Of a stretch of DNA of 64,000 bases, positions 1,709 through 49,269 are shown in pieces (the first letter of the stretch is position 1; each line of letters begins with the position of its first letter). The notes beneath the pieces were generated by a model that did not search any database, was not told where the DNA came from, and saw only the letters and a list, made by a program, of their open reading frames with translations. The position numbers and the translations under genes were made by a program. The stretch lies in contig NZ_CP134398.1 of the NCBI RefSeq assembly GCF_002968335.2, forward strand, positions 4,092,001 to 4,156,000. The letters run 5' to 3'. The stretch comes from Mycobacterium sp. ITM-2016-00316. GTDB lineage: Bacteria; Actinomycetota; Actinomycetes; Mycobacteriales; Mycobacteriaceae.

Positions 1709-1725
1709 CGAGAATGGCGTTATCA
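1709..1725. promoter_or_regulatory. Candidate TGAGAAT-N3-ATTCTCA operator upstream of Mas genes
   Basis: The sequence reads CGAGAAT-GGC-GTTATCA, matching 11 of 14 positions of the dyad found at several other promoters in this window. It lies about 20 bases upstream of the chosen Mas start codon. By itself it would be weak evidence; the recurrence is what supports it. Confidence 0.4.
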
Positions 1726-1818
1726 AATTCGACTATTCATTCGACGATACCCCATCATCGATTCGCCCAGAAACAATGCTCTTCCTGCGGAAACGCTATT
1801 TCCGTGCTGTGCGTACGC

Positions 1819-3282
1819 TCAGCGGGCGAGGTCCTGAAGGCGATCCTTCATCACCTTGCCCGTGGCGTTCAGGGGCAGCTCATCCAGAAACTCTACGTAC
1901 CGCGGCACCTTATACCCGGCCATCCGGTCACGGCTCCAAGCGATCAAATCGGCCTCGCTCAGGGCATCGTCGCCTTCACGGCACACCACGAAGGCCTTGC
2001 CGACCTGGCCCATCCGTTCGTCGGGCACGCCGATCACCGCCGCCTGACGGACCGCGGGGTGCTCGAGCAGGAAGCCCTCGATCTCGGCCGGGTAGGCATT
2101 GAACCCGCCGACGATGAACATGTCCTTCTTGCGGCCGACGATCTTGAGCCGTCCAGCGTCGTCGACGGTTCCCAGATCCCCGGTGTGCAGCCATCCGTCG
2201 GCGTCGATCGTCTCTGCGGTGGCCACCGGATCATCCAGGTAGCCCTGCATCACGGTGTAGCCGCGCACCAGCACCTCCGCGTCCGCGGCGATACGCACCT
2301 CGACACCGTCGCAGGGCCTGCCCGCGGTGGTCGCGATGTCCTCGAAGGTATCGCCGGGGCGGGACAGGGTGACCGTGCCGGCCTCGGTCAATCCGTACCC
2401 GGTCGCCAGCGTCTGGAAGGGCAGTTCCTCGTGCACCCGGCGGATGAGTTCCACCGGGATGTCAGCGGCCCCGGTGACCCCGGCGCGCAGGGTCGCCAGC
2501 CGATGCTTGTCGGTGACCGCCAGCAGTGAGTGGTACAGCGTCGGGGCGCCCGGCAGCATCGTGATCTTTTCGGCCTCGATGAGGTCCACGACGGCGGGCA
2601 CGTCGAACACCGGAACCGGCAGGATGGTGGCGCCGCGAATCAGCGAGGAGATGCAGCCGGCCTTGTAGCCGAAGGTGTGGAAGAACGGGTTGACGATCAG
2701 GTAGCGGTCGCCCTGGCGCAGGTCGGCCAGATCGCACCACTCGGTGTACAACCGAAGCGTCTGTTCATGATTCATCATCACTCCCTTGGCCCGGCCGGTG
2801 GTGCCGGAGGTGTAGATGATGTCGGCGATATCGGTGCCCAGCAGACCCTTCGCCTCGAAGGGCTGCCCGCTGTCCAGGAAGCCCGAGGTGATCTCGATCG
2901 CCGGGACGCCAGCGGGAACGCTGAAATCCTGGCCCAGGAAGCCGTTTTGGACCAGGACGGCCTTGGCGCCGCTGCGGGTGATGATATCGGCGGCCTCTTC
3001 GGCCTTGAATCGGGTGTTCACCGGGACGACCACTGCACCGGCGGTCACCGCACCGAAGGCGGCGATCAGCCAGCCTGCGGAGTTGGGCGCCCAGATCGCG
3101 ACCCGGTCGCCCTTGCCGATACCGAATTCGGCGAAAGCTCCCGCGGCACACCGAACACGCTGCGCCAGTTCGATATAGCTCAGCCGCAGGGAACCGTCAA
3201 CGACCGCTTCGGCATCACCGAAGCGGTCGCCGACGCTCAAGACCATCTCCGGGATGGTCTGCCACTCTTGGGTATACGTCAC
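1819..3282 (-). CDS. Acyl-CoA synthetase, FadD3-like
   Basis: A 487-residue ANL-superfamily ligase that would activate a carboxylic acid to its CoA thioester via an acyl-adenylate. The P-loop reads YTSGTTGRAKG, the adenine-binding motif GYGLTEAG, and the C-terminal catalytic lysine lies in NATGKVMKD. Length and several blocks (NPFFHTFGYKAG, GGFNAYPAEIE, VIGVPDERMG) resemble mycobacterial FadD3, which activates a steroid ring-degradation intermediate; I compared from memory, so treat it as FadD3-like rather than FadD3. It lies nine bases after the amidohydrolase gene and precedes the Mas pair, so it probably belongs to the transcript starting near 4500. Confidence 0.85.
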   Translation of the reverse strand: MTYTQEWQTIPEMVLSVGDRFGDAEAVVDGSLRLSYIELAQRVRCAAGAFAEFGIGKGDRVAIWAPNSAGWLIAAFGAVTAGAVVVPVNTRFKAEEAADIITRSGAKAVLVQNGFLGQDFSVPAGVPAIEITSGFLDSGQPFEAKGLLGTDIADIIYTSGTTGRAKGVMMNHEQTLRLYTEWCDLADLRQGDRYLIVNPFFHTFGYKAGCISSLIRGATILPVPVFDVPAVVDLIEAEKITMLPGAPTLYHSLLAVTDKHRLATLRAGVTGAADIPVELIRRVHEELPFQTLATGYGLTEAGTVTLSRPGDTFEDIATTAGRPCDGVEVRIAADAEVLVRGYTVMQGYLDDPVATAETIDADGWLHTGDLGTVDDAGRLKIVGRKKDMFIVGGFNAYPAEIEGFLLEHPAVRQAAVIGVPDERMGQVGKAFVVCREGDDALSEADLIAWSRDRMAGYKVPRYVEFLDELPLNATGKVMKDRLQDLAR

Positions 3283-3290
3283 TCGCGAAA

Positions 3291-4481
3291 TTACGTGGTG
3301 ATGAGGCGCCCGAGGTTGCCGCCCATGATCTTTGCCTGGTCCTCGATGGAGAGATGCTCCAGGGCGGTCACATAGTGCGTCGGCTCCGCCAGGCCCTCCG
3401 GGTGCGGCCAGTCCGAGCCGTACAGCACCTGGTCGACGCCGATGAGGTTGATCAGATCATCGATGCCCTCTTCGTAGAACGGGCTGACGTAGATGCGGTT
3501 CTTGATCTCTTCCATCGGGTTACCCAGGAACGCCTCCGGCGCCTTCTTGTACACCTCGGCCATCGAATCCAACAGCGGGAACATCCACTTGGAGCCGGCC
3601 TCGACGATGCCGACCTTCAGCTTCGGGTGCCGGAAGAGTGCGCCGTGAATGACCCAGGAGGCCACCGCGTCCTGGATCGGACGCCATTCGTTGAGGATGG
3701 ACATCGCGTTGGTCTGGAACGGCAGCATCTCCTGCGCCCCGCCATCCCACTCCGAGGTGTAGCGCGAGTAGCCACTGTCGCTGGAGTGCATGCCCACGAA
3801 GATGTCGTGATGCACGCAACGCTCCCAGAAGGGATCGAATTCGGGCAGAGCGAACGACCGCGGGCCGCGGAAGCCGGGCACCGGTGCCGGGCGGATCAGG
3901 ATGGCACGGGCGCCGCGCGCGACCGCCCACTCCAGCTCCTCGAGCGCCTTGTCCAGGATGGGCAGGGTGATCACCGGAGTGGTGAAGATGCGGCCCTTGT
4001 GATTGAAGCCCCACACCTCGTGCAGCCATTCGTTCAGCGCGTGCACGATGACGTGGATGGCGACCGGATCGTCGGCGAGGCGTTCCTCGATGAGGCTGGC
4101 CAGCGTCGGGAACATCAGCGTGCGGTCCAGACCGAGGTCGTCCATCACCTTGATGCGCGGCTCGGGCTCGAAGAACGCCGGGATGGCCTTCATCGGCTCG
4201 CCGAACAGCTCGCGCTTGCTCTTGCCGTCGGGGTTACCGAACTTGAAGTACTCCTCCCAGGCGCCCGGCTTGGCGACCACCGAGAAGGTGGGGTTCGGGA
4301 TGTAGTTGCTGATCTGGCCCTTGATGGCGATCTTCGTGCGGCCGTTGATCTCCACGTACTGGACGATGTCCTTGTACTCCTTGGGGAGGTACTTGGTCAT
4401 CGCCTCCGGAGGCTCGTAGAGGTGGTTGTCCGCATCGAAAAGCGGAAACGGTATGTCGACCCGATGCGACAGTTGACCCAT
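3291..4481 (-). CDS. Amidohydrolase-family (ACMSD-like) metal-dependent hydrolase
   Basis: A 396-residue TIM-barrel protein of the amidohydrolase-2 family, which includes decarboxylases and C-C hydrolases acting on ring-cleavage products. The N-terminal metal site is the DADNH form instead of a plain HxH; later motifs are GMHSSD, HPKLKVGIVEAG and the signature YGSDWPHPEG near the C terminus, whose Asp normally binds the metal. The start ATG has an AAAGGAG box. First gene of an apparent transcript with the FadD3-like ligase, under the perfect TGAGAAT dyad. Substrate cannot be told; two more members of this family lie at 35-37 kb. Confidence 0.85.
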   Translation of the reverse strand: MGQLSHRVDIPFPLFDADNHLYEPPEAMTKYLPKEYKDIVQYVEINGRTKIAIKGQISNYIPNPTFSVVAKPGAWEEYFKFGNPDGKSKRELFGEPMKAIPAFFEPEPRIKVMDDLGLDRTLMFPTLASLIEERLADDPVAIHVIVHALNEWLHEVWGFNHKGRIFTTPVITLPILDKALEELEWAVARGARAILIRPAPVPGFRGPRSFALPEFDPFWERCVHHDIFVGMHSSDSGYSRYTSEWDGGAQEMLPFQTNAMSILNEWRPIQDAVASWVIHGALFRHPKLKVGIVEAGSKWMFPLLDSMAEVYKKAPEAFLGNPMEEIKNRIYVSPFYEEGIDDLINLIGVDQVLYGSDWPHPEGLAEPTHYVTALEHLSIEDQAKIMGGNLGRLITT

Positions 4482-4502: not shown

Positions 4503-4519
4503 TGAGAATCATATTCTCA
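4503..4519. promoter_or_regulatory. Perfect dyad operator overlapping a -10 box
   Basis: TGAGAAT-CAT-ATTCTCA is a perfect 14/14 inverted repeat. On the minus strand a promoter-like TTGCGA lies 17 bases from TATGAT, and the TATGAT is inside the dyad, so a bound repressor would block RNA polymerase. The site also overlaps the stop codon of the upstream ligase gene. It is the strongest member of the repeated operator family in this window. Confidence 0.65.
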
Positions 4520-6163
4520 TGTTGTGGATGTCGCAATGCCCCTGGGTGCGGCCGAGGCCGAATCGCTCACGGCCTGTCGCACCCTGAATTTCTGCACCTT
4601 GCCGCTCGCGGTCCGCGGGAAGTCCTCTCCCTCCGATAGCGCGACCAGTTCCTCGGGCCACTTCTGCCGAGCCACGCCCGCTTGTTCGAAGTGGGCGCGT
4701 ACCTGCTCGCGCGTGGGCATCTGGGCCCCGGGCCGGATTCGCAGCACAGCCGCGACATGCTCGCCGAGGCGCGCATCCGGGGCCGCCACCACGACGGCCT
4801 CCTGCACCGCGGGCATGCTCAGCAGCACTTCCTCGACCTCGAGGGCACTGATGTTCTCGCCGCCCCGGATGATCAGGTCGGCGGTGCGGTCGGTGATGGT
4901 GAGGTAGCCGTCCTCGTCGAGGACGCCGATATCGCCGGTGCGGTACCAGCCGTCGTCGTCGAACGATTCCGCAGTCAGCACGTCATCGGTATAGCCCAGG
5001 CAGAGGTCGGGGCCGCGGCTGAAGATCTCGCCGTCGGGTCCCAGCCGGATCTCCACACCGGGCCGGGCATTGCCGTCGGTGAACAGCCGCTTGTCCTCCG
5101 GCGCTGCCGGTCCCGAACCGGTGATCGAGGGATGCTCGGTGCTGCCGTACGAACGGAACACGAAGAGTCCGAGGTCGGCGAGGCGCCGGGTGACCGCGGA
5201 CGGGACCGTCGACCCACCCAGCCCAACGGTGGAGAACCGGGCCAGATGCGCGTCGGTGAAACCCGGGTGGTCCATCAGGCTGGTGACGAAGTACGGCGGT
5301 CCGCCGCCGATGGACAGCCCGTCGCGCTCGATGATGTCGAGCACCCGGCCGGGATCCCACACATCGCACAGGTCGATGGGCGCGCCTTCGAGCACCGGGA
5401 TCAGGAACGCGCCGAGCATGCCGATGAAGTGTCCGACCGGGGTGGCGGTGAGTTGGCGACCGCGACCCGGCGGGTAGTTGGCCAGCAGCTGGCGGGTCTC
5501 ACAGTTCAGCGTCTGGTGGCTGTGGATGACACCCTTGGGTTCCTTGGTGGTGCCCGAGGTGAACGCGATCAGCGCCGGGGCGGCCGGATCGGCGTCCACG
5601 GTCCCGGTCATCGGCTCGTCGGCCAGCAGCCGGTCGAAGGCCAACTCGCCATCGGCGCCGACCAATCCGACGATCGGCACCTCGGTGCACAGATCCGGGT
5701 GGAACGTCATCCGCCCGAATTCCGCGGTGCTGATGAAAACCTTCGGCCGGGCGGTCGCGATGATGTGACCGAGTTCCTTGCGGCCGTAGAAATGCACGAT
5801 CGGGACGGTGACCGCGCCCAGGAACGCCGAGGCCCAGAACGCGACGGCGGCTTCCATCCAGTTCGGCAGCTGCAGGGCCACCACGTCGCCCGCGCCGACA
5901 CCACGCTCGGCCAGGCCGGCGGCCAGCCGACGGGCGCGGTGCTCGACGTCGGCGAAGGTACCGGCGAAGGGCCGGGTCTCGGAGTGTACGAAGAACCCGG
6001 CGTCGGGACTCGCCTGCAAGCCGTCGGCCAGCAGCTGGCCGAGTGTTTCCGGTGTCCACCACCCCTGCTCCACGTACCGTTTACTCAGCTCAGCAGGGAT
6101 TTTTCGGATCGAAATGACAGCACCTCCGCAACGCCGGGCAGATGCTGGTGATGCTATTCTCAC
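4517..6163 (-). CDS. Acyl-CoA synthetase / AMP-dependent ligase
   Basis: An ANL-superfamily ligase of up to 548 residues. Motifs: P-loop FTSGTTKEPKG, SYGSTEHPS for adenine binding, GDIGVLDEDGY, and the C-terminal SGKVQKFRVR with the catalytic lysine. It resembles ligases for cyclic or short carboxylates (cyclohexanecarboxylate-CoA ligase type) more than long-chain FadDs; that is a family-level impression. The start is unclear: GTG 6163 opens the frame but has no ribosome site, while a good GGAGGT box lies seven bases before an ATT codon at 6115, followed by the usual family N-terminus (IPAELSKRYVEQGWW). Divergent from the enoyl-CoA hydratase gene. Confidence 0.85.
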   Translation of the reverse strand: MRIASPASARRCGGAVISIRKIPAELSKRYVEQGWWTPETLGQLLADGLQASPDAGFFVHSETRPFAGTFADVEHRARRLAAGLAERGVGAGDVVALQLPNWMEAAVAFWASAFLGAVTVPIVHFYGRKELGHIIATARPKVFISTAEFGRMTFHPDLCTEVPIVGLVGADGELAFDRLLADEPMTGTVDADPAAPALIAFTSGTTKEPKGVIHSHQTLNCETRQLLANYPPGRGRQLTATPVGHFIGMLGAFLIPVLEGAPIDLCDVWDPGRVLDIIERDGLSIGGGPPYFVTSLMDHPGFTDAHLARFSTVGLGGSTVPSAVTRRLADLGLFVFRSYGSTEHPSITGSGPAAPEDKRLFTDGNARPGVEIRLGPDGEIFSRGPDLCLGYTDDVLTAESFDDDGWYRTGDIGVLDEDGYLTITDRTADLIIRGGENISALEVEEVLLSMPAVQEAVVVAAPDARLGEHVAAVLRIRPGAQMPTREQVRAHFEQAGVARQKWPEELVALSEGEDFPRTASGKVQKFRVRQAVSDSASAAPRGIATSTT

Positions 6164-6174
6164 CTGCCGAGAAT
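6146..6174. promoter_or_regulatory. Divergent promoter region with TGAGAAT-type sites
   Basis: TGGTGAT-GCT-ATTCTCA at 6146-6162 has one perfect and one degraded half of the recurrent dyad. A further GAGAAT at 6169-6174 makes an everted ATTCTC-N7-GAGAAT pair, the same arrangement seen at 12292-12310. The region separates the divergent ligase and hydratase genes. Confidence 0.35.
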
Positions 6175-6201
6175 GCCAATACCGAAATCGGAGAACCTTT
6201 G

Positions 6202-6918
6202 ATGGTCGACCTCGAACTGGACGGCGAACTGGCGGTCATCACCATCGACCGCCCGCATGCCCGCAACGCCATCTCGCTGGAGACGATGGACCAACTGAAC
6301 ACGGCCCTGGACGGCGCCGCCGGTGCATCCGCGCTCGCCATCACCGGGGCCGGTGACCGGGCGTTCGTCTCCGGGGGCGACCTCAAGGAACTGGCACTGC
6401 TGCGCACCGAGCTGGAGGCGTCGTCGATGGCCTGGCGGATGCGGGCGATCTGTGATCGCATCGCCGGCTTCCCCGGCCCGGTGATCGCCGCACTGAACGG
6501 ACATGCGCTCGGCGGTGGCGCCGAGGTGGCGGTCTCCGCCGATATCCGGATCGCCGCCGATGACATCAAGATCGGCTTCAACCAGATCTCGCTGGCGATC
6601 ATGCCGGCCTGGGGCGGCGCCGAGCGGCTCGGCCATCTGGTCGGGCGCAGCCAGGCGCTGCTGCTGGCCGGGACCGGGCGGGTACTGGATGCCCCCGCCG
6701 CCGAGCGGGTCGGACTGATCGATCAGGTGATACCCCGCGCCGAGTTCGCCACCTCGTGGCGCGAGACGGCCCAACTGCTGGCCCGCCGACCCGCCGGCGA
6801 GATCAAACGGGTCATCAAGGGAGCGACCACCACCGAGGCGGTCGCGGCCTTCGCCGGACTCTGGGTCTCCCAGGAACACTGGGATGCCGCCGACAAGGTG
6901 ATGAACAAGGGCAAATAG
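6202..6918 (+). CDS. Enoyl-CoA hydratase/isomerase family protein
   Basis: A 238-residue crotonase-fold protein, slightly shorter than the usual 255-265. Oxyanion-hole blocks are visible: FVSGGDLKEL in the first half and GHALGGGAEVAVSADIRIA in the second. In classical hydratases two glutamates follow these blocks; the alanine- and glycine-rich INQISLAIMPAWGG stretch lacks the usual second catalytic glutamate, so isomerase, hydrolase or other crotonase chemistry is possible. ATG 6202 has a GGAG box nine bases upstream. It is transcribed away from the ligase at 4.5-6.1 kb and is probably co-regulated with it. Confidence 0.8.
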   Translation: MVDLELDGELAVITIDRPHARNAISLETMDQLNTALDGAAGASALAITGAGDRAFVSGGDLKELALLRTELEASSMAWRMRAICDRIAGFPGPVIAALNGHALGGGAEVAVSADIRIAADDIKIGFNQISLAIMPAWGGAERLGHLVGRSQALLLAGTGRVLDAPAAERVGLIDQVIPRAEFATSWRETAQLLARRPAGEIKRVIKGATTTEAVAAFAGLWVSQEHWDAADKVMNKGK

Positions 6919-9516: not shown

Positions 9517-10185
9517 CTAGTGAACGGGACCCGGCGGCAACTTCCCGGCCGCCGCCTCGAAACCACTGCCCGCAAGGTCACCGAAAATCTGCTCCAACGG
9601 CAGCGCCTCCCCCTCGAGTTCGCGCAGCCAGCGCTCCACGAACTCCAGTGTCTCGGCATGCCCGGCCGACATCCCCAACGCCTGTTCCATCACCAGCGCC
9701 CACGACAGGCTGGTGCCGATGACGGCCCAGACCACCGGTGGGACGTCGCCGGGGTCCACCCCGTAGCGCTCCAGTGCCGCGGACATGGCCACCCGCTGAT
9801 CCTCCCGGAAGCGCTCCGCGTAGTAGCTGATCTCCGCGCGCAGTTCCTTGCGGTGATTGGCCAGCCCCATGAACTCCATGGTCAGCCGGGTGGACTCCTG
9901 ATCGGTGCTGAACAGCCAGATGGCCCGCAGCGGCTGCGCCGATTTCAGCGCGGCTTCCAGCACCACCAGTCCCTGCTCGGCACGGCGGCGGAACACCGCC
10001 AGGAACAGATCGTCCATGGTCCGGAAGTAGTAGTGCACCAACTGGGGCTTGAGCCCCGCCCGCTCGGCGACCCGCCGCGAGGTGACCGCGGCGTAGCTCT
10101 CGTCGATCATCAGCGCCTGCGCGGCGTCGAGTAGGACGCCCCGGTTCTTGGCATCCGGCGCCCCGATCCTGCGCGCTGTGGACAT
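9517..10185 (-). CDS. TetR-family transcriptional regulator
   Basis: About 222 residues. The N-terminal DNA-binding domain (roughly residues 12-60) shows the TetR helix-turn-helix VTSRRVAERAGLKPQLVHYYF. The remaining helical domain would bind a ligand, plausibly an acyl-CoA or pathway intermediate. ATG 10185 has a GGTGGAG box five bases upstream; GTG 10209 would add eight residues. Divergent from the P450 gene at 10399, whose promoter carries a CTAAGCA-N2-TGCACAG dyad, so this protein is the nearest candidate to bind it. The same promoter element recurs before the P450 at 54.9 kb. Confidence 0.85.
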   Translation of the reverse strand: MSTARRIGAPDAKNRGVLLDAAQALMIDESYAAVTSRRVAERAGLKPQLVHYYFRTMDDLFLAVFRRRAEQGLVVLEAALKSAQPLRAIWLFSTDQESTRLTMEFMGLANHRKELRAEISYYAERFREDQRVAMSAALERYGVDPGDVPPVVWAVIGTSLSWALVMEQALGMSAGHAETLEFVERWLRELEGEALPLEQIFGDLAGSGFEAAAGKLPPGPVH

Positions 10186-10267
10186 GACACTCCACCCTTT
10201 GCTCGACACTTATCCGGTACGTCCGCACGGCCGCCCACCGGATCGTATCGACTCGCCGGTTGTGACC

Positions 10268-10306
10268 TTGACCACGACTCTATCCACATGCTAAGCAGGT
10301 GCACAG
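10268..10306 (+). promoter_or_regulatory. P450 promoter with CTAAGCA dyad (copy A)
   Basis: TTGACC (10268-10273) and TAAGCA (10292-10297) are 18 bases apart. The second box lies inside the dyad CTAAGCA-GG-TGCACAG (10291-10306). An element with the same order, spacing and about 80 percent identity over 44 bases precedes the P450 gene at 54920. Likely a regulated promoter. Confidence 0.5.
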
Positions 10307-10398
10307 CACTTTCAACGGCATTGCTTCCGCCGGATTCTCGGTCCGCCGGCACGACAGCGCTGACACCATCCCACCCACAGCCCGGGAGATCGACCTAC

Positions 10399-11676
10399 AT
10401 GAGCGAATACGCGACGCTGGATTTCCTCACCGACCAGTCGCTGGTTCCCAATCCCTACCCCTACTTCGACTACCTGCGTGAGCAGAATCCGGTGCTGCAG
10501 GTGCCGCCGTGGGGTTGCTACGCGGTCACCGGGTACGAGGAAGCGGTCGCGGTCTACAAGAACACCGATGCGTTCTCCAATGCGGTCGCCCTCGGCGGTC
10601 CGTTCCCGCCGCTGCCCTTCACCCCCGAGGGTGACGACATCTCCGAGCAGCTCGAGGCACACCGGCACCTGCTGCCCATGTTCGAGCACATGGTCACCAT
10701 GGATCCGCCCGACCACACCAAGGCACGTTCCCTGCTGAACCGGCTGCTGACCCCGCGCCGTCTCAAGGAGAACGAGGATTTCATGTGGAAGCTGGCCGAC
10801 GTCCAGCTCGACGAGTTCCTCGACCACGGCCGGTGTGAGTTCCTCGCCGAATACGCAAAGCCGTTCTCGCTGCTGGTGATTGCCGACCTGCTCGGCGTGC
10901 CCGAGGAGGACCACAAGCAGTTCCGTACGGTGCTGGGCGCCGATCGCCCCGGCGCCCGGGTGGGCTCCCTGGAGCAGGAGACCGTCGCGGAGAACCCGTT
11001 GCAGTTCCTCGACGACAAGTTCATCGCCTACCTCGAGGACCGCCGGGCCACCCCGCGCGAGGACGTCCTGACCTCACTGGCGACCGCGCTCTATCCCGAT
11101 GGCTCGGTACCTCCTGTCATCGAGCCGGTGCGCTCGGCGACGTTCCTCTTCGCCGCCGGCCAGGAGACCACCACCAAGCTGCTCAGCGCCGCGATGCGGG
11201 TGCTGGCCGAGAATCCCGCGGTGCAGCAGCAGCTGCGCGATGACCGCAGTCTGATCCCGACGTTCATCGAGGAGTCGCTGCGCCTGGAGAGCCCGGTCAA
11301 GTGCGATTTCCGGTTGGCCCGCAAGACAACCGAGGTCGGCGGTGTGGTGATCAAGGCGGGTGCCCCGGTGATGGTGCTCCCCGGTGCGGTCAACCGCGAC
11401 CCGAAACGCTTCGAGAATCCGCACGAGTTGCGGCTGGACCGCAAGAATGTGCGCGAGCACATGGCCTTCGGTCGCGGTGTGCACTCCTGCCCGGGTGGTC
11501 CGCTGGCCCGCGTGGAGGGCCGCGTCTCGATCGAGCGGCTGCTGGACCGGATGGGCGATATCACCGTCGATCCCGAGAAGCACGGCCCCGTAGGGGATCA
11601 GAACTTCAACTATGAGCCGACATTCGTGCTGCGCGGGCTCACCGAGCTCAACATCAACTACACGCCGCTGCGTTAG
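10399..11676 (+). CDS. Cytochrome P450
   Basis: A 425-residue soluble class I bacterial P450, inserting one oxygen atom into a substrate C-H bond with electrons from a ferredoxin. Diagnostic motifs: I-helix LFAAGQETTTK, K-helix ESLRLESPV (ExxR), and the haem loop FGRGVHSCPGG with the axial cysteine. ATG 10399 has a GGGAG box. No ferredoxin is adjacent, so it probably borrows one from the four in this window. Its closest local relative is the P450 at 47.9-49.2 kb: same length, the shared RLKENED and AGQETT stretches and a nearly identical haem loop. A 17-bp hairpin follows. Confidence 0.95.
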   Translation: MSEYATLDFLTDQSLVPNPYPYFDYLREQNPVLQVPPWGCYAVTGYEEAVAVYKNTDAFSNAVALGGPFPPLPFTPEGDDISEQLEAHRHLLPMFEHMVTMDPPDHTKARSLLNRLLTPRRLKENEDFMWKLADVQLDEFLDHGRCEFLAEYAKPFSLLVIADLLGVPEEDHKQFRTVLGADRPGARVGSLEQETVAENPLQFLDDKFIAYLEDRRATPREDVLTSLATALYPDGSVPPVIEPVRSATFLFAAGQETTTKLLSAAMRVLAENPAVQQQLRDDRSLIPTFIEESLRLESPVKCDFRLARKTTEVGGVVIKAGAPVMVLPGAVNRDPKRFENPHELRLDRKNVREHMAFGRGVHSCPGGPLARVEGRVSIERLLDRMGDITVDPEKHGPVGDQNFNYEPTFVLRGLTELNINYTPLR

Positions 11677-13295: not shown

Positions 13296-13787
13296 TCACA
13301 TCCTCGTCAGGTTGAACCGATAGGTCAGCGACCCGCCGGGGGCGCCATCGCAGCCGGCGGCAAAGCTGGAGACCATCTCGCCGGCCAAAGTCGTTGCATC
13401 CCATGAGTACACATCGTGGGTGGGGATGGTCGGGCCGTAGTAGATGTTCCCGCAGCGCAGACCGAACGGGTCGTCGATGGTCATCGTGTACCGGCCGTCG
13501 ACCATGGTGGCGTTCGCGTGTGTGTACTGCGCCTTGGCCACCGGTTGCGGGATGGTGAGCACGTTGATGCAGTCGGGGATGAGGACACGGTCCTCGTCCT
13601 CACACGGTGTCAGCGCCGACCAGATCCAGGTGTGGAAGTCCCGCCTGTCCGGGATGTTGACGGCGTAGTTGCCCAGGTACATCGTTGCCGTGGCGGGCGG
13701 CGCGACACCGACGGCGACCGCCACGCCCACCGCGCCGAGTACCGCGCCGGCCTTCATCGATGTCATCGGACGCCTCCAGCCCCTCAT
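13296..13787 (-). CDS. Exported protein coupled to mceF
   Basis: About 163 residues. I chose ATG 13787 because it overlaps the mceF stop by four bases (ATGA), giving a signal peptide that ends near PPATATMY. The mature part contains three or four cysteines (TPCEDE, IPDCIN, LRCGNI, AAGCDG), aromatic residues and no catalytic motif; it looks beta-rich. Downstream lies the MmpS-like gene. Translational coupling to the last mce gene suggests it works with the transporter in the cell envelope. Not a family I can name. Confidence 0.75.
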   Translation of the reverse strand: MRGWRRPMTSMKAGAVLGAVGVAVAVGVAPPATATMYLGNYAVNIPDRRDFHTWIWSALTPCEDEDRVLIPDCINVLTIPQPVAKAQYTHANATMVDGRYTMTIDDPFGLRCGNIYYGPTIPTHDVYSWDATTLAGEMVSSFAAGCDGAPGGSLTYRFNLTRM

Positions 13788-15535
13788 GTCGGCATCAGGT
13801 CCTGCCACGATGTCGCGGTGTTCACCAGATCGGTCTGCTTGTACAGGTGGCCGTCGGCTCCCATGTACTCCCCGGTGCGCGGGTTGTACTTGGCCACGGC
13901 CAGCGACGGCCCCTGCGCGCCTGCGCCTTCGAAGGCGCTGGGCGCGGCGGCCGGTGCCGGGACATCAGGTGGCGGAAGCGGTACGCCGCCCTCGGGCACG
14001 CCGACGTAGGTGTCCGGGAACACCGGCACCTCGGTGGCCTGCGGCAGTTCTCCGGGTGGCAACGGCACGATCTCGTAATCCGGTTGCGGCGGCGGCGGCT
14101 GACCGACCACCGGCGGTTCGGTGTAGAGCGGCCGGCCCGGCAGCATGGGCCCGGGCGGCATGCCCGGGAAGCTGGCAGGCGGCTGCGGCGGCGACAGCGG
14201 GTTCGGCGGCGGAACGACGGTGCCCGGTGGCAGCGGCGTGCCTTGTAGCGGACCGTAGATGTTCTCGTCAGGCAGCACCCGGGTGTCCACCGGGACACCC
14301 TGCGAGATCAGGTTGGGGTCGATCGGGTAGGGCCCCAGCGCATGCTGGCGCTGGGCCAGTGGCACGAAACCGCGTGGGTCGTTGCACAATTCGACCGTGG
14401 GTGCTCGCTTGCCGGGATGCCCCTGGCAGGGATAGTTACGCGCGCCGCGCACGGCGATCGGCGAGTCCTGGGGCAGCTTGCAGTAGATGTTGTCGGGGGT
14501 GTCGATGGTCGTGGTGTCGGCCGGCGACCGCCAGGCCGAGGGCGGCAGGAACCCTACGGTGCACGACGGCGGGTCCCCGAGCCCGAGCGAGAACTCACCG
14601 TTGGGCAGGCCGGTGGGGTTGTTGGTCGGCGCGTACGTCTGGATCTGGGAGACATACGGCGGCAACAACACCAGCAGCTGCTCCAGCGACGAGTTGTAGG
14701 TGACACCGATCTGCCCGATGGTGGTCAGGTTGGCCAGCAGCACCGGCAGCGTCGGCTTGAGATCGTTGAGCAGCATCGAGGTCTCACTGGCGAATCCCGG
14801 CCCGTTCTGCAGGATCGAGCGGACGTGGATATCGTTGTCGGCCAGCTGATCCGTGATTCCCGCCAGGCTGGCCGCCCAGGTCCTGGTCTGCTCGGTGGTC
14901 TGCGCCTGTGCCTCCAGGAACGGCCCGGAATCGTCGATCAGGGCGCGGAACTGGTCGGAGATTTCGTTGGCGTCGTTCGTGATGGTCTCGGCCGAGTCCA
15001 GCAGGGAGCCGAACGCATACCCGGTGCCGTTGAACGCCTCATATGTCGAGTCGAGCAGCTGGCTCAGCTTGTCCTGCGGAATCGTGTCCATCAACGCGCT
15101 GACCTGATCGAGCATCGGTCCGACCTTCTGCGGGATGGAGGTGTTCTCCTGGGTGATCACCGAACCGTTCTTCAGAAACGGGCCGGAATCGGTGCGGGGC
15201 AACAGCTCGACGAACTGCTCACCGACGGCCGACATGCTGCGCACTTCCGCCTTCAGGTCGGCAGGGATCTCCGGCGAGGTCTCCAGCGACAGGGTGGCTT
15301 CCGCTCCTCTTTCGGTCAGTTCGACGGAGGTGACCTTGCCGATCTCCGACCCGCGGTAGGTCACGTTGCTGAACCGGTAGAGGCCTCCGGTGGCCGGCAG
15401 CTCCACCTTGACGGTGATGCGTCCCAGACCCAACAGGGTGGGGACCTGCATATAGCTGAAGACCATCACCGAGACGCCGATCACCGACGCGATCGTGAAC
15501 AGAATCAGCTGGATGCGAACGAACCGGGTCAGCAT
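13784..15535 (-). CDS. mceF: Mce family protein MceF
   Basis: A 583-residue Mce subunit. An N-terminal membrane helix (about residues 8-28) anchors an MlaD/Mce domain (about 38-115, RITVKVELPATGGLYRFSNVTYRGSEIG). A long helical region follows, then a proline-rich C-terminal tail of over 150 residues. In Mce complexes six such subunits form a hexameric channel that carries lipid across the periplasm. Start overlaps the mceE stop by one base. The tail is longer and more proline-rich than in typical MceF proteins, as I recall them. Confidence 0.93.
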   Translation of the reverse strand: MLTRFVRIQLILFTIASVIGVSVMVFSYMQVPTLLGLGRITVKVELPATGGLYRFSNVTYRGSEIGKVTSVELTERGAEATLSLETSPEIPADLKAEVRSMSAVGEQFVELLPRTDSGPFLKNGSVITQENTSIPQKVGPMLDQVSALMDTIPQDKLSQLLDSTYEAFNGTGYAFGSLLDSAETITNDANEISDQFRALIDDSGPFLEAQAQTTEQTRTWAASLAGITDQLADNDIHVRSILQNGPGFASETSMLLNDLKPTLPVLLANLTTIGQIGVTYNSSLEQLLVLLPPYVSQIQTYAPTNNPTGLPNGEFSLGLGDPPSCTVGFLPPSAWRSPADTTTIDTPDNIYCKLPQDSPIAVRGARNYPCQGHPGKRAPTVELCNDPRGFVPLAQRQHALGPYPIDPNLISQGVPVDTRVLPDENIYGPLQGTPLPPGTVVPPPNPLSPPQPPASFPGMPPGPMLPGRPLYTEPPVVGQPPPPQPDYEIVPLPPGELPQATEVPVFPDTYVGVPEGGVPLPPPDVPAPAAAPSAFEGAGAQGPSLAVAKYNPRTGEYMGADGHLYKQTDLVNTATSWQDLMPT

Positions 15536-28434: not shown

Positions 28435-28451
28435 CAGGCTCCTCACTGTGA

Positions 28452-28468
28452 TGGAAATTTCATTCTCA
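28452..28468. promoter_or_regulatory. TGAGAAT-type operator upstream of aldehyde dehydrogenase-mce transcript
   Basis: TGGAAAT-TTC-ATTCTCA matches 12 of 14 dyad positions. Minus-strand promoter boxes TTGCGT and TAAGAT, 16 bases apart, lie just upstream, placing the dyad near the transcription start. Confidence 0.5.
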
Positions 28469-28604
28469 TCAGGGGCGAATCTTACATCCGGTTCATGAGA
28501 ACGCAAGAAAGTGTAGATGCGCTAGTCGTATACCCCGAGCTGGCTTCTGGGCCAAACCTTTGTTCCCTAATTCAGGCCCGCCGATCTTGCGGTATCGCCC
28601 GACC

Positions 28605-28621
28605 CGAGAGTACGGTTCTCA
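28605..28621. promoter_or_regulatory. TGAGAAT-type operator upstream of SDR-P450 operon
   Basis: CGAGAGT-ACG-GTTCTCA matches 11 of 14 dyad positions and lies about 55 bases before the first SDR gene, in the region divergent from the aldehyde dehydrogenase promoter. A CATAAT -10-like box overlaps its right end. Confidence 0.4.
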
Positions 28622-33722: not shown

Positions 33723-34734
33723 CAAACTCCTCGGCGATGAGGGCGCGGTGTTCAGCGGCACCGCCGAGCAGCAGCTCGCCGGCCTTGGCCCGCTTCAGCG
33801 CGAACTGAAGGTCGTTCTCCCAGGTGAAGCCCATGGCTCCGAAGGTCTGCAGGCCGTGCTGGAACACCAGCGTCTGGCACTCCCCCGCACTGGCCTTGGC
33901 CATCGCTGCGGCGATCCGGCGCCGCGGGTCATCCGCGGCGATGGTGAGTGCGGCGAAATAGGACAGCGCGCGGGCCCGTTCGATGGCCACGTACATGTCG
34001 GTGGCCTTGTGTTGGATGGCCTGAAACGATCCGATCGGCACCCCGAACTGGTGGCGACTCTTGGCATGCTCAAGCGCAAGGTCCAAAACGCGCTGACACG
34101 CTCCGACCGTGGTGATGGCCATACCCATCAACGCGATGTGGCGAGACCGCTCGACCAGAGCCAGCGCGGCAGCGGGTTCCAGGTCGAGGCGGTCGGACTC
34201 TTCCACGCGTACCCGGTCGAAGGTGACCTCGGCGACATGCAGCACCGGGTCGAACACATCGCGGCGCCGTGTGGTGATGCCTTCCGGGGCGATCACGAAG
34301 ACCCCCGCGGGCGTGACCACGGCGAGTTGTTCGGCGCGGTCCCCGTCCAGGACGAACTTCGAGGTGCCGTTCAGTTCCCAACCCTGCCGGCTCCAATTGG
34401 CGCTGACACCTTCGTATATCGCCGCCCCGGCCTTGGCGGGGTCGTACCGCTCGCCCGCCAGCGGCGCGAACTGCGACAGCGTGGCCAGCAGCGGTGTCGG
34501 GTCGGTGGCCCGGCCCAGTTCCTCGAGCACGATGGCGAGTTCGACCGCGTTCTCCGGGTCGGTCAGCTCGGTCCATCCGGCGTCCAGATAGGACTTCCAC
34601 AGGGGGATCGACGCGTCCCCTTCGCCCCGCCCCTCTGAGATTCCCCGGACCAGTGACGCCGGGCACTGCTTGCCCACCGCGTCACGCACCGTTTCCTGCC
34701 ATAGCCGCTGATCAGAGTCGAACTCCAGAAGCAT
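33706..34734 (-). CDS. Acyl-CoA dehydrogenase, small subunit of a FadE pair
   Basis: A 342-residue, shortened acyl-CoA dehydrogenase-like protein. The N-terminal and middle domains are condensed, and the C-terminal helical domain is kept (HQFGVPIGSFQAIQHKATDMYVAIERAR and HGLQTFGAMGFTWENDLQF). It lacks the C-terminal IAGGTSEI block present in its partner. Such short subunits occur in heterotetrameric steroid FadEs, where the pair shares FAD sites. First gene of the transcript, with a near-perfect TGAGAAT dyad 35 bases upstream. Confidence 0.88.
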   Translation of the reverse strand: MLLEFDSDQRLWQETVRDAVGKQCPASLVRGISEGRGEGDASIPLWKSYLDAGWTELTDPENAVELAIVLEELGRATDPTPLLATLSQFAPLAGERYDPAKAGAAIYEGVSANWSRQGWELNGTSKFVLDGDRAEQLAVVTPAGVFVIAPEGITTRRRDVFDPVLHVAEVTFDRVRVEESDRLDLEPAAALALVERSRHIALMGMAITTVGACQRVLDLALEHAKSRHQFGVPIGSFQAIQHKATDMYVAIERARALSYFAALTIAADDPRRRIAAAMAKASAGECQTLVFQHGLQTFGAMGFTWENDLQFALKRAKAGELLLGGAAEHRALIAEEFDATRI

Positions 34735-34768: not shown

Positions 34769-34785
34769 GGAGAATAGCATTCTCA
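34769..34785. promoter_or_regulatory. TGAGAAT-type operator upstream of the FadE pair
   Basis: GGAGAAT-AGC-ATTCTCA matches 13 of 14 dyad positions. On the minus strand it contains TGC-TATTCT, an extended -10-like element, so repressor and polymerase would compete. Confidence 0.55.
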
Positions 34786-34996: not shown

Positions 34997-36109
34997 GTGA
35001 AAGAACTGCAGGACGGCGCGGGGAACGTCGTGACGACGCCCGTCATCGATACCAGCGTCCACATCTTCGTCGAGTCGAACAAGGACCTCCGCAAGAACTT
35101 CCTCAAGGAGCCGTTCAGCAGCCGGGGATTCCCGGACTACGAGATGGACTGGTACGGGGCGCCCGGCGGCGAGTACGCCACCCGCACCACGGGCCCGGAC
35201 GGCCAGTACCCCGGCTCCGATCCCGCGGTCGTGGCCAAGCACCTGTTCGCCGACCGCGGCGTGGACATCGCCATCCTGCATCCGATGACACGCGGCATCA
35301 TGCCCGACCGTCACCTCGGCTCCGCGATCGCCGCAGCGCACAACGAGATGATGGTGACGCGCTGGCTCGCGCACGACGAGTTCGGCGATCGGTTCCGCGG
35401 GACCATCCGGGTCAACCCCGACGATATCGCCGGGGCCCTGCGCGAGATCGACAAGTACAAGGGCCACCCGCAGGTGGTGCAACTCGGCATTCCGCTGCAG
35501 TCCCGCGAACTCTATGGAAAACCGCAGTTCTGGCCGCTGTGGGAGGCCGCCGTCGACGCCGGACTCCCGGTCGCCGTGCACTTCGAGGTCGGCTCGGGCG
35601 TCGCACTGCCGCCGACCCCCAACGGACTCACCCGCACCTACGAGCAGTATGTCGGGTTCACCGCGCTGAACTTCCTCTACCACCTCATGAACATGATCGC
35701 CGAGGGCGTTTTCGAACGCTTGCCGGAACTGAAGTTCGTCTGGGCCGACGGCGCCGCCGACCTGCTGACGCCCTTCATGTGGCGGATGGACTGCTTCGGC
35801 CGGCCGCATCTCGAGCAGACACCGTGGGCGCCCAAGATGCCCAGCGACTATCTGCCCGGCCACGTGTACTTCGTGCAGGGTGCACTGGACGGACCCGGCG
35901 ATGTCGACTTCGCCGGTGAGTGGGCCGGATTCACCGGCAAGGACGACATGGTGATGTACGGATCGAGCTATCCGCACTGGCAGCTCAACGAGCTCGCGGT
36001 GCCGCGCAGCTACAGCGCCGAGCAGCGCGACAAGTTGTGCTGGCGCAACGCGGCCGAACTGTACGGGATCCAAAGCCCGGTCATCGCGTCCACCGCCGGG
36101 GCACAGTAG
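34997..36109 (+). CDS. Amidohydrolase-family protein 1 of catabolic operon
   Basis: A 370-residue amidohydrolase-2 (ACMSD-like) TIM barrel, starting at GTG 34997. Metal-site features: IDTSVHIF near residue 18-22, VAVHFEVGSG, and the C-terminal MVMYGSSYPHWQ in place of the more usual GSDYPH, i.e. Asp replaced by Ser at a position that normally binds metal. That substitution may mean altered or lost chemistry. Paired with a second member of the family 20 bases downstream; a heteromeric enzyme is possible. Confidence 0.85.
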   Translation: MKELQDGAGNVVTTPVIDTSVHIFVESNKDLRKNFLKEPFSSRGFPDYEMDWYGAPGGEYATRTTGPDGQYPGSDPAVVAKHLFADRGVDIAILHPMTRGIMPDRHLGSAIAAAHNEMMVTRWLAHDEFGDRFRGTIRVNPDDIAGALREIDKYKGHPQVVQLGIPLQSRELYGKPQFWPLWEAAVDAGLPVAVHFEVGSGVALPPTPNGLTRTYEQYVGFTALNFLYHLMNMIAEGVFERLPELKFVWADGAADLLTPFMWRMDCFGRPHLEQTPWAPKMPSDYLPGHVYFVQGALDGPGDVDFAGEWAGFTGKDDMVMYGSSYPHWQLNELAVPRSYSAEQRDKLCWRNAAELYGIQSPVIASTAGAQ

Positions 36110-36129
36110 AGGGAACGAGGAGGCACACC

Positions 36130-37275
36130 ATGACCACCACAGCCAATCCGCGGCTACCTGCCACCGAGCGCATCGCCGTGCGGTGCGTCGACTCCGACGT
36201 GCATCCGGCGCCCCGGTCGGGCGAGCTCGGCCAGTACCTCCCCGAACCGTGGCGCAGCAAGTACTTCGGCACGCACAAGGTCGGCGACCAGATCTACTAC
36301 GACGCACCCGACTACGCGCATTCCTACGCCATGCGTCTGGACACGTTCCCCCCGGATGGTCAGTTCCCCTGCAGTGACCCCGAACTGGCGTTCAAACAGC
36401 TGATCATGGAGGCCGGCGCGGATATCGCGATCCTGGAACCCGCCGCCTACCCGGCGCGCATCCCGGAGGCGCAGCACGCCATGTCGATGGCGCTCAACGA
36501 CTGGCAGGCCAACCACTGGCTCGACAGCCAGAACAACTGGCACGAGCGCTGGCGCGGGTCGATCTGCCTGGCCATCGAGGAGCCCGACAAGAGCGTCGAG
36601 GAGATCGAACGCTGGGCCGACCATCCGTACATGTCGCAGATCCTGATCAAGGCCGAACCCCGTCCATCCTGGGGCAACCCCAAGTACGACGCCATCTGGG
36701 CGGCGGCCACCAAGCACGACATCCCGGTGAGCTGCCACCTGTCGCGCAGCCATTACGACGAGCTGCCGATGCCGCCGGTCGGATTGCCCAGCTACAACCA
36801 CGATTTCATGGTCACCTACTCGCTGCTGGCGGCCAACCAGGTGATGAGCCTGATCTTCGACGGCACCTTCGACCGGCATCCGACGCTCAAGATCGTCTTC
36901 GTCGAGCACGCGTTCACCTGGATTCTGCCGCTGATGTGGCGAATGGACGCGCTCTACGAAGCCCGTAAGTCCTGGGTCGACATCAAGCGCAAGCCCAGCG
37001 AGTACGTCAAGGACCACATCAAGTTCACCACCCAGCCACTGGACTACCCGGAGGACAAGACCGAACTGACCCGCGCCTTCGAGTGGATGGAGTGCGAGAA
37101 GATCCTGCTGTTCAGCAGCGATTACCCGCACTGGACGTTCGACGATCCACGCTGGCTGGTCAAGCACCTGCCCGAACATGCCCGCGAGCCGATCATGTTC
37201 CGCAATGGGATGGCCACGTACAGAAATGTGCCGCAGACTGTGCCGGCACTCGAGGGCCAGGTTCGGGTTTTCTGA
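36130..37275 (+). CDS. Amidohydrolase-family protein 2 of catabolic operon
   Basis: A 381-residue amidohydrolase-2 protein. Motifs: CVDSDVHPAPRSG near the N terminus, VSCHLSRSH mid-barrel, HPTLKIVFVEHAFTW and LLFSSDYPHWTFDDP, which keeps the metal-binding Asp that the neighbouring paralogue lacks. Enzymes of this family hydrolyse or decarboxylate carboxylated ring or ring-cleavage products. ATG 36130 is preceded by GAGGAGG. Followed three bases later by the Rieske ferredoxin gene. Confidence 0.87.
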   Translation: MTTTANPRLPATERIAVRCVDSDVHPAPRSGELGQYLPEPWRSKYFGTHKVGDQIYYDAPDYAHSYAMRLDTFPPDGQFPCSDPELAFKQLIMEAGADIAILEPAAYPARIPEAQHAMSMALNDWQANHWLDSQNNWHERWRGSICLAIEEPDKSVEEIERWADHPYMSQILIKAEPRPSWGNPKYDAIWAAATKHDIPVSCHLSRSHYDELPMPPVGLPSYNHDFMVTYSLLAANQVMSLIFDGTFDRHPTLKIVFVEHAFTWILPLMWRMDALYEARKSWVDIKRKPSEYVKDHIKFTTQPLDYPEDKTELTRAFEWMECEKILLFSSDYPHWTFDDPRWLVKHLPEHAREPIMFRNGMATYRNVPQTVPALEGQVRVF

Positions 37276-47256: not shown

Positions 47257-47324
47257 ACGGTGGATGGTTGCTCAGAATGCACCTACTGCACAGCGACGGA
47301 CCGTTCAGCCTGGGGATAACTCGA

Positions 47325-47406
47325 CGAGCAGACACATAGGGCCCCAAAAGTAAGCACTTTTGGGGCCATATGTTGGGGGCACCTCCCGCTTGCGGGGGAC
47401 TGCTCG
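47325..47406. repeat. MITE-like repeat, copy 2
   Basis: An 82-bp element in the same orientation as copy 1, with the same CGAGCAG/CTGCTCG ends and identical right half. A perfect 12-bp hairpin, GGCCCCAAAAGT pairing with ACTTTTGGGGCC, is followed by CCCGC-TT-GCGGG. It ends seven bases before the stop of the DUF1330 gene, where it may act as terminator. Confidence 0.75.
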
Positions 47407-47413
47407 CGGGAAC

Positions 47414-47698: not shown

Positions 47699-47732
47699 AG
47701 TTTGAATCTCCTTGTCGGTGAGGCGGATTGAT

Positions 47733-47921
47733 TCAGATCTCGTGGATCGCGTTCTCGGGGCAACACTGGATGGCCTCCTGCACAGCCGCTTCGTGTTCGG
47801 CCGGCACCTCGCCGGGAGCAGCGACCGCCCATCCGTCATCGGAGAGGTCGAACACCTCGGGGCACAGCGTCAGGCACATCCCGTGGCCGGCGCAGCGGTC
47901 CTCGTCGACGCCGACCCTCAT
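47733..47921 (-). CDS. Ferredoxin, CxxHxxC type, P450 partner
   Basis: A 62-residue ferredoxin with ligands in RCAGHGMC and CCPENA and His at the variable position. It also has a cysteine at TLCPEV. Starts inside the P450 stop (ATGA overlap), so it is the cognate partner of that P450. Confidence 0.92.
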   Translation of the reverse strand: MRVGVDEDRCAGHGMCLTLCPEVFDLSDDGWAVAAPGEVPAEHEAAVQEAIQCCPENAIHEI

Positions 47922-49195
47922 ATGGCGTCGAACTCCAGGTGCAGGTGGGTGAGTCCGCGCAGGATGAACGTCGGGATGTAGTGGTAGTCCCTATTGTCCG
48001 CCGGACCGTGCTTCTCCTCGGAGATGCGGATGTCGGTGGTGCGATCGAGCAGCCGCTCCAGGCCCACCCGGGTCTCCGCGCGGGCCAGCGGAGCACCCGG
48101 GCAGCTGTGGATGCCGCGACCGAAAGCCAGGTGCTGGCGGGCATTCTTGCGCGCCGGGTCGAATTCGTCGGGATCCTCGAAGCGGCGCGGATCGCGGTTG
48201 GCCCCGGCGTTGACCACCATGACGGTGGTGCCCGACGGAAGTTCCTTCTCCCCCACCGTAACCGGGGTGCGTGACAGCCGGAAGTCACCCTTGACCGGGC
48301 TTTCGTGGCGCAGCGCTTCCTCGATGAAGTTGGGTAGCAGACTGCGGTCCTCGCGTACCTGCTTCTGGATGTCCGGCCGGTCACCGAGCACCTTGAGCGC
48401 AGTGCCCAGCAGGCGGACCGTGGTCTCCTGACCCGCCGAGAAGACGTTGGTGGCAACACGTGCGACGTCGCCGGGGGTCGGCGTGGTGCCGTCGGGGAAC
48501 AGCGCGGTCGCCATCCCGGTCATGATGTCCTCGCGCGGGTTGACCCGTCGATCCTCGATGTACGCCTCGAACTGGGCGTAGAGGAACTCCAGCGGGCTGT
48601 GCGACAGCGACTCGTCACCGGTGCTGCCGACGCCCCCGCCGGAGTTCTGCGAGATGCCGTCGACGAAGGCGTTGCGGTCCTCGGGCGGGATGCCCAGCAG
48701 GTCTGCGATCACCAGCAGCGTGAACGGGCTGGCGAATCCCTTGATGAACTCACCCTTGCCGGGCGCCAGGAAGTCATCGAGCACCCCGTCGGCCAACTGC
48801 CACATCGCGTCCTCGTTCTCCTTGAGGCGCTTGGGAGTGATCAGCCGCATCATCAGCGAGCGATGGTTGGTGTGCACGGGCGGATCCAGCGTCGGCAGCT
48901 GATCGCTGAACGGCAGCTCGTCGCGGTGCTTCTCGATCAGCTCGGCGACGTCGTCGCGGCCCTCCAGCGGCACCGGAAAGCCCGGGAACGGTCCGGTCAC
49001 CGAGGTGCACGACGAGAAGGTGTCCGCGTCGTTGTAGACCGAAACCGCCTCTTCCCAACCGGTCACCATGGTCACGCCGTAGATGTCTTCGGGTTGGACC
49101 GGGCATTGGTTACGCAACGCGTTGAAGTACGGGTAGGGATCGTCAACCAGCCGCGGGTCCTTGAACCAGTCGATGCCGGCGGGATCGATCGCCAT
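47918..49195 (-). CDS. Cytochrome P450 with coupled ferredoxin
   Basis: A 425-residue P450: I-helix FSAGQETTVRL, K-helix EALRHESPV, haem loop FGRGIHSCPGAP. Same length as the P450 at 10.4 kb and shares with it the DPYPYF/NPYPYF start, RLKENED and haem loop, so the two are paralogues. GGAACGGAG ribosome site. First gene of the operon with ferredoxin and DUF1330, behind two TGAGAAT-type dyads spaced 21 bases apart. Confidence 0.95.
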   Translation of the reverse strand: MAIDPAGIDWFKDPRLVDDPYPYFNALRNQCPVQPEDIYGVTMVTGWEEAVSVYNDADTFSSCTSVTGPFPGFPVPLEGRDDVAELIEKHRDELPFSDQLPTLDPPVHTNHRSLMMRLITPKRLKENEDAMWQLADGVLDDFLAPGKGEFIKGFASPFTLLVIADLLGIPPEDRNAFVDGISQNSGGGVGSTGDESLSHSPLEFLYAQFEAYIEDRRVNPREDIMTGMATALFPDGTTPTPGDVARVATNVFSAGQETTVRLLGTALKVLGDRPDIQKQVREDRSLLPNFIEEALRHESPVKGDFRLSRTPVTVGEKELPSGTTVMVVNAGANRDPRRFEDPDEFDPARKNARQHLAFGRGIHSCPGAPLARAETRVGLERLLDRTTDIRISEEKHGPADNRDYHYIPTFILRGLTHLHLEFDAI

Positions 49196-49231
49196 ATGCG
49201 TTACTCCGTTCCTGGCAGGCAGTGCCCACTA

Positions 49232-49269
49232 CGAGAATGTGGCTCTCATCTATGAGTATTACATTTCCA
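49232..49269. promoter_or_regulatory. Two TGAGAAT-type operators upstream of P450
   Basis: CGAGAAT-GTG-GCTCTCA (49232-49248) and TGAGTAT-TAC-ATTTCCA (49253-49269) each match 11 of 14 dyad positions. Their centres are 21 bases apart, two DNA turns, so bound dimers would sit on the same face. They precede the P450-ferredoxin-DUF1330 operon. Confidence 0.45.

Follow-up and report, generated by a model that had tools for sequence, protein, structure and literature searches.

A widespread mycobacterial palindrome upstream of catabolic genes and T1, its candidate TetR-family regulator

Introduction

The described systems closest to the one reported here are TetR-family regulators of lipid catabolism. 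KstR (Rv3574) has the operator TnnAACnnGTTnnA (PMC1995591), while the KstR2 regulon, built on the palindrome AnCAAGnnCTTGnT, comprises 15 genes (PMC3068626). A further palindrome, ‘motif X’, has been predicted in Mycobacterium sp. VKM Ac-1817D as the site at which the Rv0767c orthologue acts (PMC6593523), and a less significant Rv0767c motif is given as a logo only (PMC4482099). Here we describe the palindrome TGAGAAT-N3-ATTCTCA in a 64,000-nucleotide stretch of Mycobacterium sp. ITM-2016-00316 (contig NZ_CP134398.1, positions 4,092,001 to 4,156,000; hereafter the window, to which coordinates refer unless marked as genome positions), together with T1, a TetR-family protein that is its likely regulator. 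Open-licence papers, searched as text and therefore without the logos in their figures, yielded no published description of this operator or of T1 and nothing relevant for the motif letters, and the passages of PMC4881515, PMC10312376 and PMC10470581 add no operator sequence.

Results

The palindrome is very probably the operator of T1, a dimer of which would repress its own promoter and those of a surrounding gene island until a pathway intermediate releases it. Allowing three mismatches, TGAGAAT-N3-ATTCTCA (core GAGAAT-N3-ATTCTC) has eight matches in the window, against a mean of 0.69 and a maximum of 3 in 100 dinucleotide shuffles. These are the eight sites that a preliminary description had recognised by eye, and all proved to be present, with coordinates and match counts correct. 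A weight matrix made from 11 sites of this genome (G000) with at most two mismatches, that at 4510967 being left out, gave nine sites above 12 bits in the window (mean 0.35, maximum 2 in 40 column-permuted matrices), 17 in the surrounding 164 kb (mean 1.12, maximum 5 in permuted matrices), and one and none in two flanking 20-kb stretches. As the matrix was trained on G000, counts within that genome are partly circular, while those in other genomes are not. The placement of the sites in upstream regions, also claimed in the preliminary description, extends beyond the window: all 17 sites in the 164 kb lie no more than 350 bp upstream of, or no more than 60 bp inside, a predicted gene start (from a simple open reading frame (ORF) call), those at 6146 and 28452 overlapping the 5' ends of longest-ORF predictions. 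On the evidence of sequence, the proposal that one regulon stands behind the window sites holds.

Across the genome of 5,986,944 bases there are 52 sites with at most three mismatches versus five for the reversed pattern. At least 16 of the 52 (among the 50 listed) lie in a single 110-kb island (genome 4,093,709-4,203,110), as do eight of the 12 sites with at most two mismatches, and the genome-wide scan that had been suggested as a check thus finds the motif concentrated there. Far from the island, a one-mismatch site at genome 2506112 (L023:10112-10128) lies upstream of an acyl-CoA dehydrogenase-like gene (CoA, coenzyme A) beside an APH-family gene. A two-mismatch site at genome 421734 (L021:7734-7750) lies within the 3' portion of a minus-strand ORF predicted as a fatty acid desaturase and is probably not a promoter site.

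Conservation was followed in the 80-160 kb around the sites of seven genomes, with orthologues below 60% identity or coverage and cases near region ends dropped from the promoter counts. Sites above 16 bits are kept in 62 of the 89 promoters of target orthologues versus 4 of 276 non-target promoters, and two of these four belong to one gene beside a target; the site is thus kept in orthologous promoters, the second check that had been put forward. The divergent partner gene is often without a site within the 350 bp scanned. At 4503, 34769, 65650, 96384, 103556 and 106595 (window-scale) the spacer varies between genomes and most of the arm sequence is retained, a pattern that looks like the footprint of a protein. 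Within the window, seven of the eight sites either are kept in one or more relatives or adjoin a conserved site.

The similarity in gene types (mce, P450, FadE, thiolase) might suggest that the island extends the steroid regulon of KstR or KstR2. We consider this extremely improbable, since the palindrome differs in both sequence and spacing from TnnAACnnGTTnnA and AnCAAGnnCTTGnT, and in the window the consensus sites of both regulators occur at chance level: the KstR pattern TAGAACNNGTTCTA (TAGAAC-N2-GTTCTA) has one match with at most two mismatches versus 0.34 expected, and the KstR2 pattern AAGCAAGNNCTTGCTT one match with at most three mismatches versus 0.75 expected. The earlier remark that the motif is distinct from both is therefore borne out.

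The genome has at least 150 TetR_N matches (150 of 283 candidates scored), among which are three TetR genes in the window (9517-10209, 50320-51117 and 57576-58283). No site exceeds 8 bits in the 300 bp before any of these three genes, in agreement with the preliminary description, and they were rejected as the regulator. The likely regulator does lie outside the window, as had been surmised: T1 is encoded 7.4 kb past its end (genome 4163391-4164041, window-scale 71391-72041). T1 has 216 amino acids and a single TetR_N domain (PF00440, 4.1e-07, 30.1 bits versus a cut-off of 24). In G000 its own promoter carries a one-mismatch site (27.1 bits) at genome 4163250, upstream of the start, and two further sites (genome 4164039 and 4164211) lie between T1 and the next gene, a short-chain dehydrogenase. 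By Pfam, the T1 neighbours in this genome include amidohydrolases, a Rieske oxygenase, SnoaL, an acyl-CoA dehydrogenase, a short-chain dehydrogenase/reductase (SDR) and epimerases.

T1 was found in 165 of 198 genomes of the genus at E<=1e-20 (163 below 1e-80), among others in M. gastri, M. persicum, M. shimoidei and M. celatum. Of the 80 titled T1 loci (the best 80 of 397, among which M. tuberculosis does not appear), 79 carry a site above 18 bits upstream, and together these 80 loci hold 215 sites above 18 bits versus 0, 0 and 0 for three permuted matrices. Overall, 128 of 129 T1 loci have an upstream site above 12 bits, at exactly -141 in 96 cases, some loci being the same gene reached twice, so that some genomes are counted double. 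The helix-turn-helix stretch FTVQEVVDRSRQSLRSFYLQFDGK is identical in 119 of the 129 and has one K for R in the other 10, and a -10-like TATTCT in gene orientation lies inside 116 of the 128 T1-promoter operators. No match to T1 turned up in a search of plasmids. A second T1 relative, with 58-63% identity, is present in G219, G289, G301 and G312, all of genus g23.

The palindrome could instead be the operator of a different regulator, encoded within the island or close to it, with T1 as merely one of its targets. Several further regulators are indeed encoded in the island, example candidates being the TetRs at 50320-51117 and 57576-58283 and an IclR gene at genome 4188469-4189203; the latter has a conserved upstream site, shared with a divergent hydrolase gene, and the TetR gene 50320-51117 sits second behind ORF 49433-50218, whose upstream region contains the sites at 49232 and 49253. 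Set against this, the window TetRs lack a site above 8 bits in the 300 bp upstream, and T1 combines the best-conserved site, placed at an almost constant distance, with a helix-turn-helix that hardly varies, which makes a different regulator unlikely.

A more distant TetR gene, T2 (genome 1502014-1502646), was also rejected as a genus-wide regulator, as no relative was found at E<=1e-40 among the best 15 candidates of each of the 197 other genus genomes. T2 is divergent from an amidohydrolase gene, and its promoter (within genome 1501850-1502646; L022:9850-10646) holds a two-mismatch site, TGAGAAT-N3-ATTCTTG, overlapping CAAGAAT-N3-ATTCTTG, the presence of the latter being a further reason for the rejection; this putative T2 operator is related to, but distinct from, the T1 palindrome.

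The distribution of the motif follows that of T1. The core GAGAATNNNATTCTC occurs in 163 of the 198 genus genomes sampled, often in 5 to 8 copies (reversed control, three matches in total), and the exact 14-base motif in 76 (control, none). Within the genus, GAGAATNNNATTCTC is present in 160 of 163 genomes with T1 versus 3 of 35 without it; outside the genus, the corresponding figures are 22 of 23 and 9 of 118, the latter nine with one site each. For the five outside genera in which T1 is both present and absent, labels were permuted 100,000 times within each genus, and the observed sum of 83 was never reached. In these comparisons ‘without T1’ means no match, or a weak match, among the best 15 (genus) or 20 (outside) scored candidates per genome, the 35 genus genomes comprising 33 with no match and two with a weak one, and the 118 including G240 with a weak match.

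Motif X, too, is a palindrome, found at TetR promoters and in front of genes for P450s, SDRs and aldehyde dehydrogenases (PMC6593523), so the palindrome might be the same element and Rv0767c its regulator. The presumed Rv0767c orthologue of this genome was taken to be the TetR at 5115.4 kb beside the sole Rv0768 family member above cut-off. With the T1-motif matrix, no site in the surrounding 16 kb exceeds 8 bits, and the promoter of this TetR gene instead contains TGGACATGTGTCCA (located by script) and GGACAAGTGTCC (by eye); identity with motif X is thus very improbable. Rv0767c was rejected as the regulator, as the promoter of its presumed orthologue holds other palindromes and no T1-type site. 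The T1 palindrome is very probably not motif X, a distinction drawn through the promoter of the presumed orthologue, as the published motif X is a logo. Both palindromes lie in the intergenic promoter between the Rv0768 and presumed Rv0767c genes (genome 5115.2-5115.5 kb; L165:8190-8470), and they are likely to represent the Rv0767c operator.

Gene labels in the island come from Pfam, NCBIfam and Protein Data Bank (PDB) comparisons. At the left end of the window, the operator-like site CGAGAATGGCGTTATCA (1709-1725, 16.1 bits) lies directly upstream of ORF 868-1707 on the minus strand, whose orthologous promoter scores 23 bits in G034 and 14 bits in G196; the name Mas given to this ORF in the preliminary description is unsupported, as no Pfam family matches at 1e-5. 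The perfect operator-like site TGAGAATCATATTCTCA (4503-4519, no mismatches) lies about 22 bp upstream of an amidohydrolase gene (3291-4481, minus strand; Amidohydro_2, PF04909; 276.7 bits to PDB 4dzi, with weaker matches to PtmU3 at 85.7 and DitZ at 50.4 bits), behind which an AMP-binding acyl-CoA ligase gene (1819-3282, minus; PF00501, 3.2e-75) is likely co-transcribed. This site is kept in G034 and G196 (29 bits) and in G241 (21 bits), with differing spacers. The weak site TGGTGATGCTATTCTCA (6146-6162, 13.4 bits) lies over the starts of a second AMP-binding acyl-CoA ligase (4517-6163, minus; PF00501, 3.3e-49) and an enoyl-CoA hydratase (6142-6918, plus; PF00378), both weak targets; it is present as described earlier, but with 13 and 11 bits in its two usable orthologues its firm membership of the regulon is doubtful.

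The divergent promoter between the aldehyde dehydrogenase-mce and SDR-P450 units carries two sites, TGGAAATTTCATTCTCA (28452-28468; 21.3 bits, with 21 bits in G034 and 16 bits in G196) and CGAGAGTACGGTTCTCA (28605-28621; 15.0 bits, with 12.4 bits before the aldehyde dehydrogenase gene of G241). Unlike most other sites, the 17-mer at 28605-28621 is identical in G034 and G196 including its spacer, and it may overlap another promoter element. The mce unit begins with the aldehyde dehydrogenase gene (26923-28506, minus), a paralogue of the Rv0768 family (TIGR04284, 638.8 bits, below the cut-off of 775), and includes a MlaE/YrbE permease (22471-23286, minus; PF02405) and a mce-family protein (13784-15535, minus; PF02470, PF11887); a CoA-transferase of family III (25718-26926, minus; PF02515) and a thiolase of Thiolase_C_1 type (23270-24439, minus; PF22691) are encoded nearby. 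On the plus strand follow an SDR oxidoreductase (28674-29375; NF009466, 228 bits, cut-off 222), a mycofactocin-coupled SDR (29394-30275; TIGR03971, 338.9 bits, cut-off 300) and a cytochrome P450 whose closest PDB match is P450cin (30567-31934; 147.8 bits to 4l6g).

The operator-like site GGAGAATAGCATTCTCA (34769-34785, 26.8 bits) lies between the minus-strand FadE pair and two plus-strand amidohydrolases (34997-36109 and 35920-37275; both PF04909), and scores 23-29 bits in six of the seven comparison genomes, namely those with an orthologue of the first FadE. Both members of the pair are acyl-CoA dehydrogenase-like, the first (33706-34734) being nearest to IpdE2 (NF050027, 118 bits, below the cut-off of 450) and the second (32535-33761) scoring 176.1 bits with TIGR03204, below the cut-off of 623.85. 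Further along, CGAGAATGTGGCTCTCA (49232-49248, 15.0 bits) and the adjacent TGAGTATTACATTTCCA (49253-49269, 14.3 bits, three mismatches) lie upstream of a P450 gene (47918-49195, minus) whose closest PDB match is CYP150A6 (512.5 bits to 6dcd), with ORF 49433-50218 (plus; no Pfam family at 1e-5) on their other side. The orthologue of this P450 has an upstream site of 18-29 bits in G034, G196, G011 and G065, and none in G314. A third, weaker site (49331-49347, 12.3 bits) is found in the same promoter.

Elsewhere in the window, another P450 closest to CYP150A6 (10288-11676, plus; 700.5 bits to 6dcd) has no firm site of its own, and a further island P450 gave no telling PDB match. Of two island amidohydrolases compared with the PDB, one closely resembles DitZ (370 bits) and the other is nearer to 4dzi. 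The island also encodes a Rieske oxygenase, a ChsH2-type OB-fold protein, MeaB and further thiolases, SDRs, CoA-transferases and acyl-CoA dehydrogenases. A mutase gene (genome 4201355-4203004; L019:5355-7004), whose product is closest in the PDB to the large subunit of 2-hydroxyisobutyryl-CoA mutase, lies near thiolase and MeaB genes and is 84-95% identical in all seven comparison genomes, while its site is not conserved.

Discussion

Several observations weigh against T1 as the regulator of the island. Among target orthologues, 27 of 89 promoters fall below the 16-bit threshold, and since divergent gene pairs share sites the 89 are not independent. The sites at 6146, 72211, 101490 and 111110 (window-scale) are weakly conserved or not conserved, that at 72211 being absent in G011 and G065. 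Outside the island lie no fewer than 34 of the 52 genome sites, at least 30 of them at three mismatches, a larger number than in the reversed control (five). One T1 locus (L090) has no upstream site, and T1 occurs without the core motif in G056, G089 and G178 within the genus and in G291 outside it. Conversely, a single motif is present without T1 in G044 and in G070 (73% completeness), and G148, an assembly of 700 contigs that carries a DitZ-like target near a contig end, has eight motifs and no T1 match. The absence of T1 was judged from the scored candidates, with the weak matches in G009, G156 and G240 counted as absent, and as T1 itself lies in the island, the co-occurrence could track the presence of the island instead. 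The structure model of T1 is mediocre (predicted local distance difference test, pLDDT, 74.5).

On balance, we infer that T1, most likely in dimeric form, binds the palindrome and represses some ten promoters of the 110-kb catabolic island in addition to its own. At its own promoter T1 would block RNA polymerase, the simplest mechanism given that the T1 operator usually contains the -10-like TATTCT, whose position within the operator is perhaps also why the spacer varies little there. Its release would be brought about by an intermediate of the pathway, probably a CoA thioester. The best PDB sequence match of T1 is 5gpa (FadR of Bacillus halodurans), over residues 28-119 only, and in fold comparisons Bacillus YvdT ranked first, with FadR bound to lauroyl-CoA and AibR bound to isovaleryl-CoA among the next best, all at about 20% identity and TM-scores of about 0.5. 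These matches are consistent with the hypothesis of an acyl-CoA effector; with a model this uncertain (pLDDT 74.5, TM-score about 0.5), no ligand can be named.

By its gene content, the island resembles a pathway of beta-oxidation type acting on a bulky lipid that is probably polycyclic, and the combination of mce, FadE and thiolase genes with CYP150-like P450s and a DitZ-like amidohydrolase suggests a polycyclic terpenoid or steroid-like substrate. A terpenoid would be a fair guess from the matches to DitZ, PtmU3 and P450cin, names associated with terpenoids. A steroid is also possible, but in the window the sites of KstR and KstR2 occur at chance level. For DitZ, the PDB name was found and no paper among the open-licence literature searched, and for CYP150 the passages of PMC5018878 cover family size only.

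More speculatively, T1 might be the master repressor of a third regulon on the scale of KstR, shared by mycobacteria and related genera, that senses a CoA thioester and degrades a polycyclic terpenoid or another non-sterol polycyclic lipid by way of CYP150 P450s, a Rieske oxygenase, DitZ-like amidohydrolases, a mce importer and a branch with the 2-hydroxyisobutyryl-CoA-mutase-like enzyme. This fuller scheme is possible but less likely than not. A defined regulon would bring together, as a single testable pathway, many P450, amidohydrolase and mce genes that are now orphans, and with T1 as its sensor, the ligand would reveal the substrate. It would also complement the regulons of KstR and KstR2 in a genus whose lipid catabolism matters for both industry and infection.

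Comparison with known regulators

The known regulators resemble T1 to different degrees. KstR, as is proposed for T1, is a conserved TetR repressor with many lipid-catabolic targets and an operator in its own promoter that partly overlaps the -10 region (PMC1995591), but its operator is TnnAACnnGTTnnA and T1 matches KstR structures weakly (E 5e-4). KstR2 is similarly a TetR protein with a local, palindromic regulon of divergent promoters, and differs in its operator AnCAAGnnCTTGnT and its 15 genes (PMC3068626). KstR3 of Mycolicibacterium neoaurum is a TetR-family negative regulator of a sterol side-chain operon with atf1, chsH4 and chsE6, and its deletion changed seven genes (PMC10398937); the T1 neighbours in G000 differ, a comparison made by neighbouring genes. 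Mce3R is of the TetR type and controls an mce operon together with lipid genes, as is proposed for T1. It was rejected as the regulator here, as it is a double TetR protein with two TetR halves and a non-palindromic operator (PMC11667970), whereas T1 has a single domain and a palindrome. The TetR-type FadR proteins of Bacillus and Thermus match T1 in sequence and fold, several entries holding acyl-CoA, but at about 20% identity and TM-scores of about 0.5, with the sequence match confined to residues 28-119. Rv0767c with motif X offers a further parallel, as this predicted TetR palindrome precedes genes for P450s, SDRs and aldehyde dehydrogenases (PMC6593523); the presumed Rv0767c orthologue in this genome lies about 950 kb from T1 and has a GGACA-N2-TGTCC palindrome. 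Judged by sequence, the T1 system is very probably a TetR regulon, a known kind of system, and its palindrome is real and widely conserved in mycobacteria.

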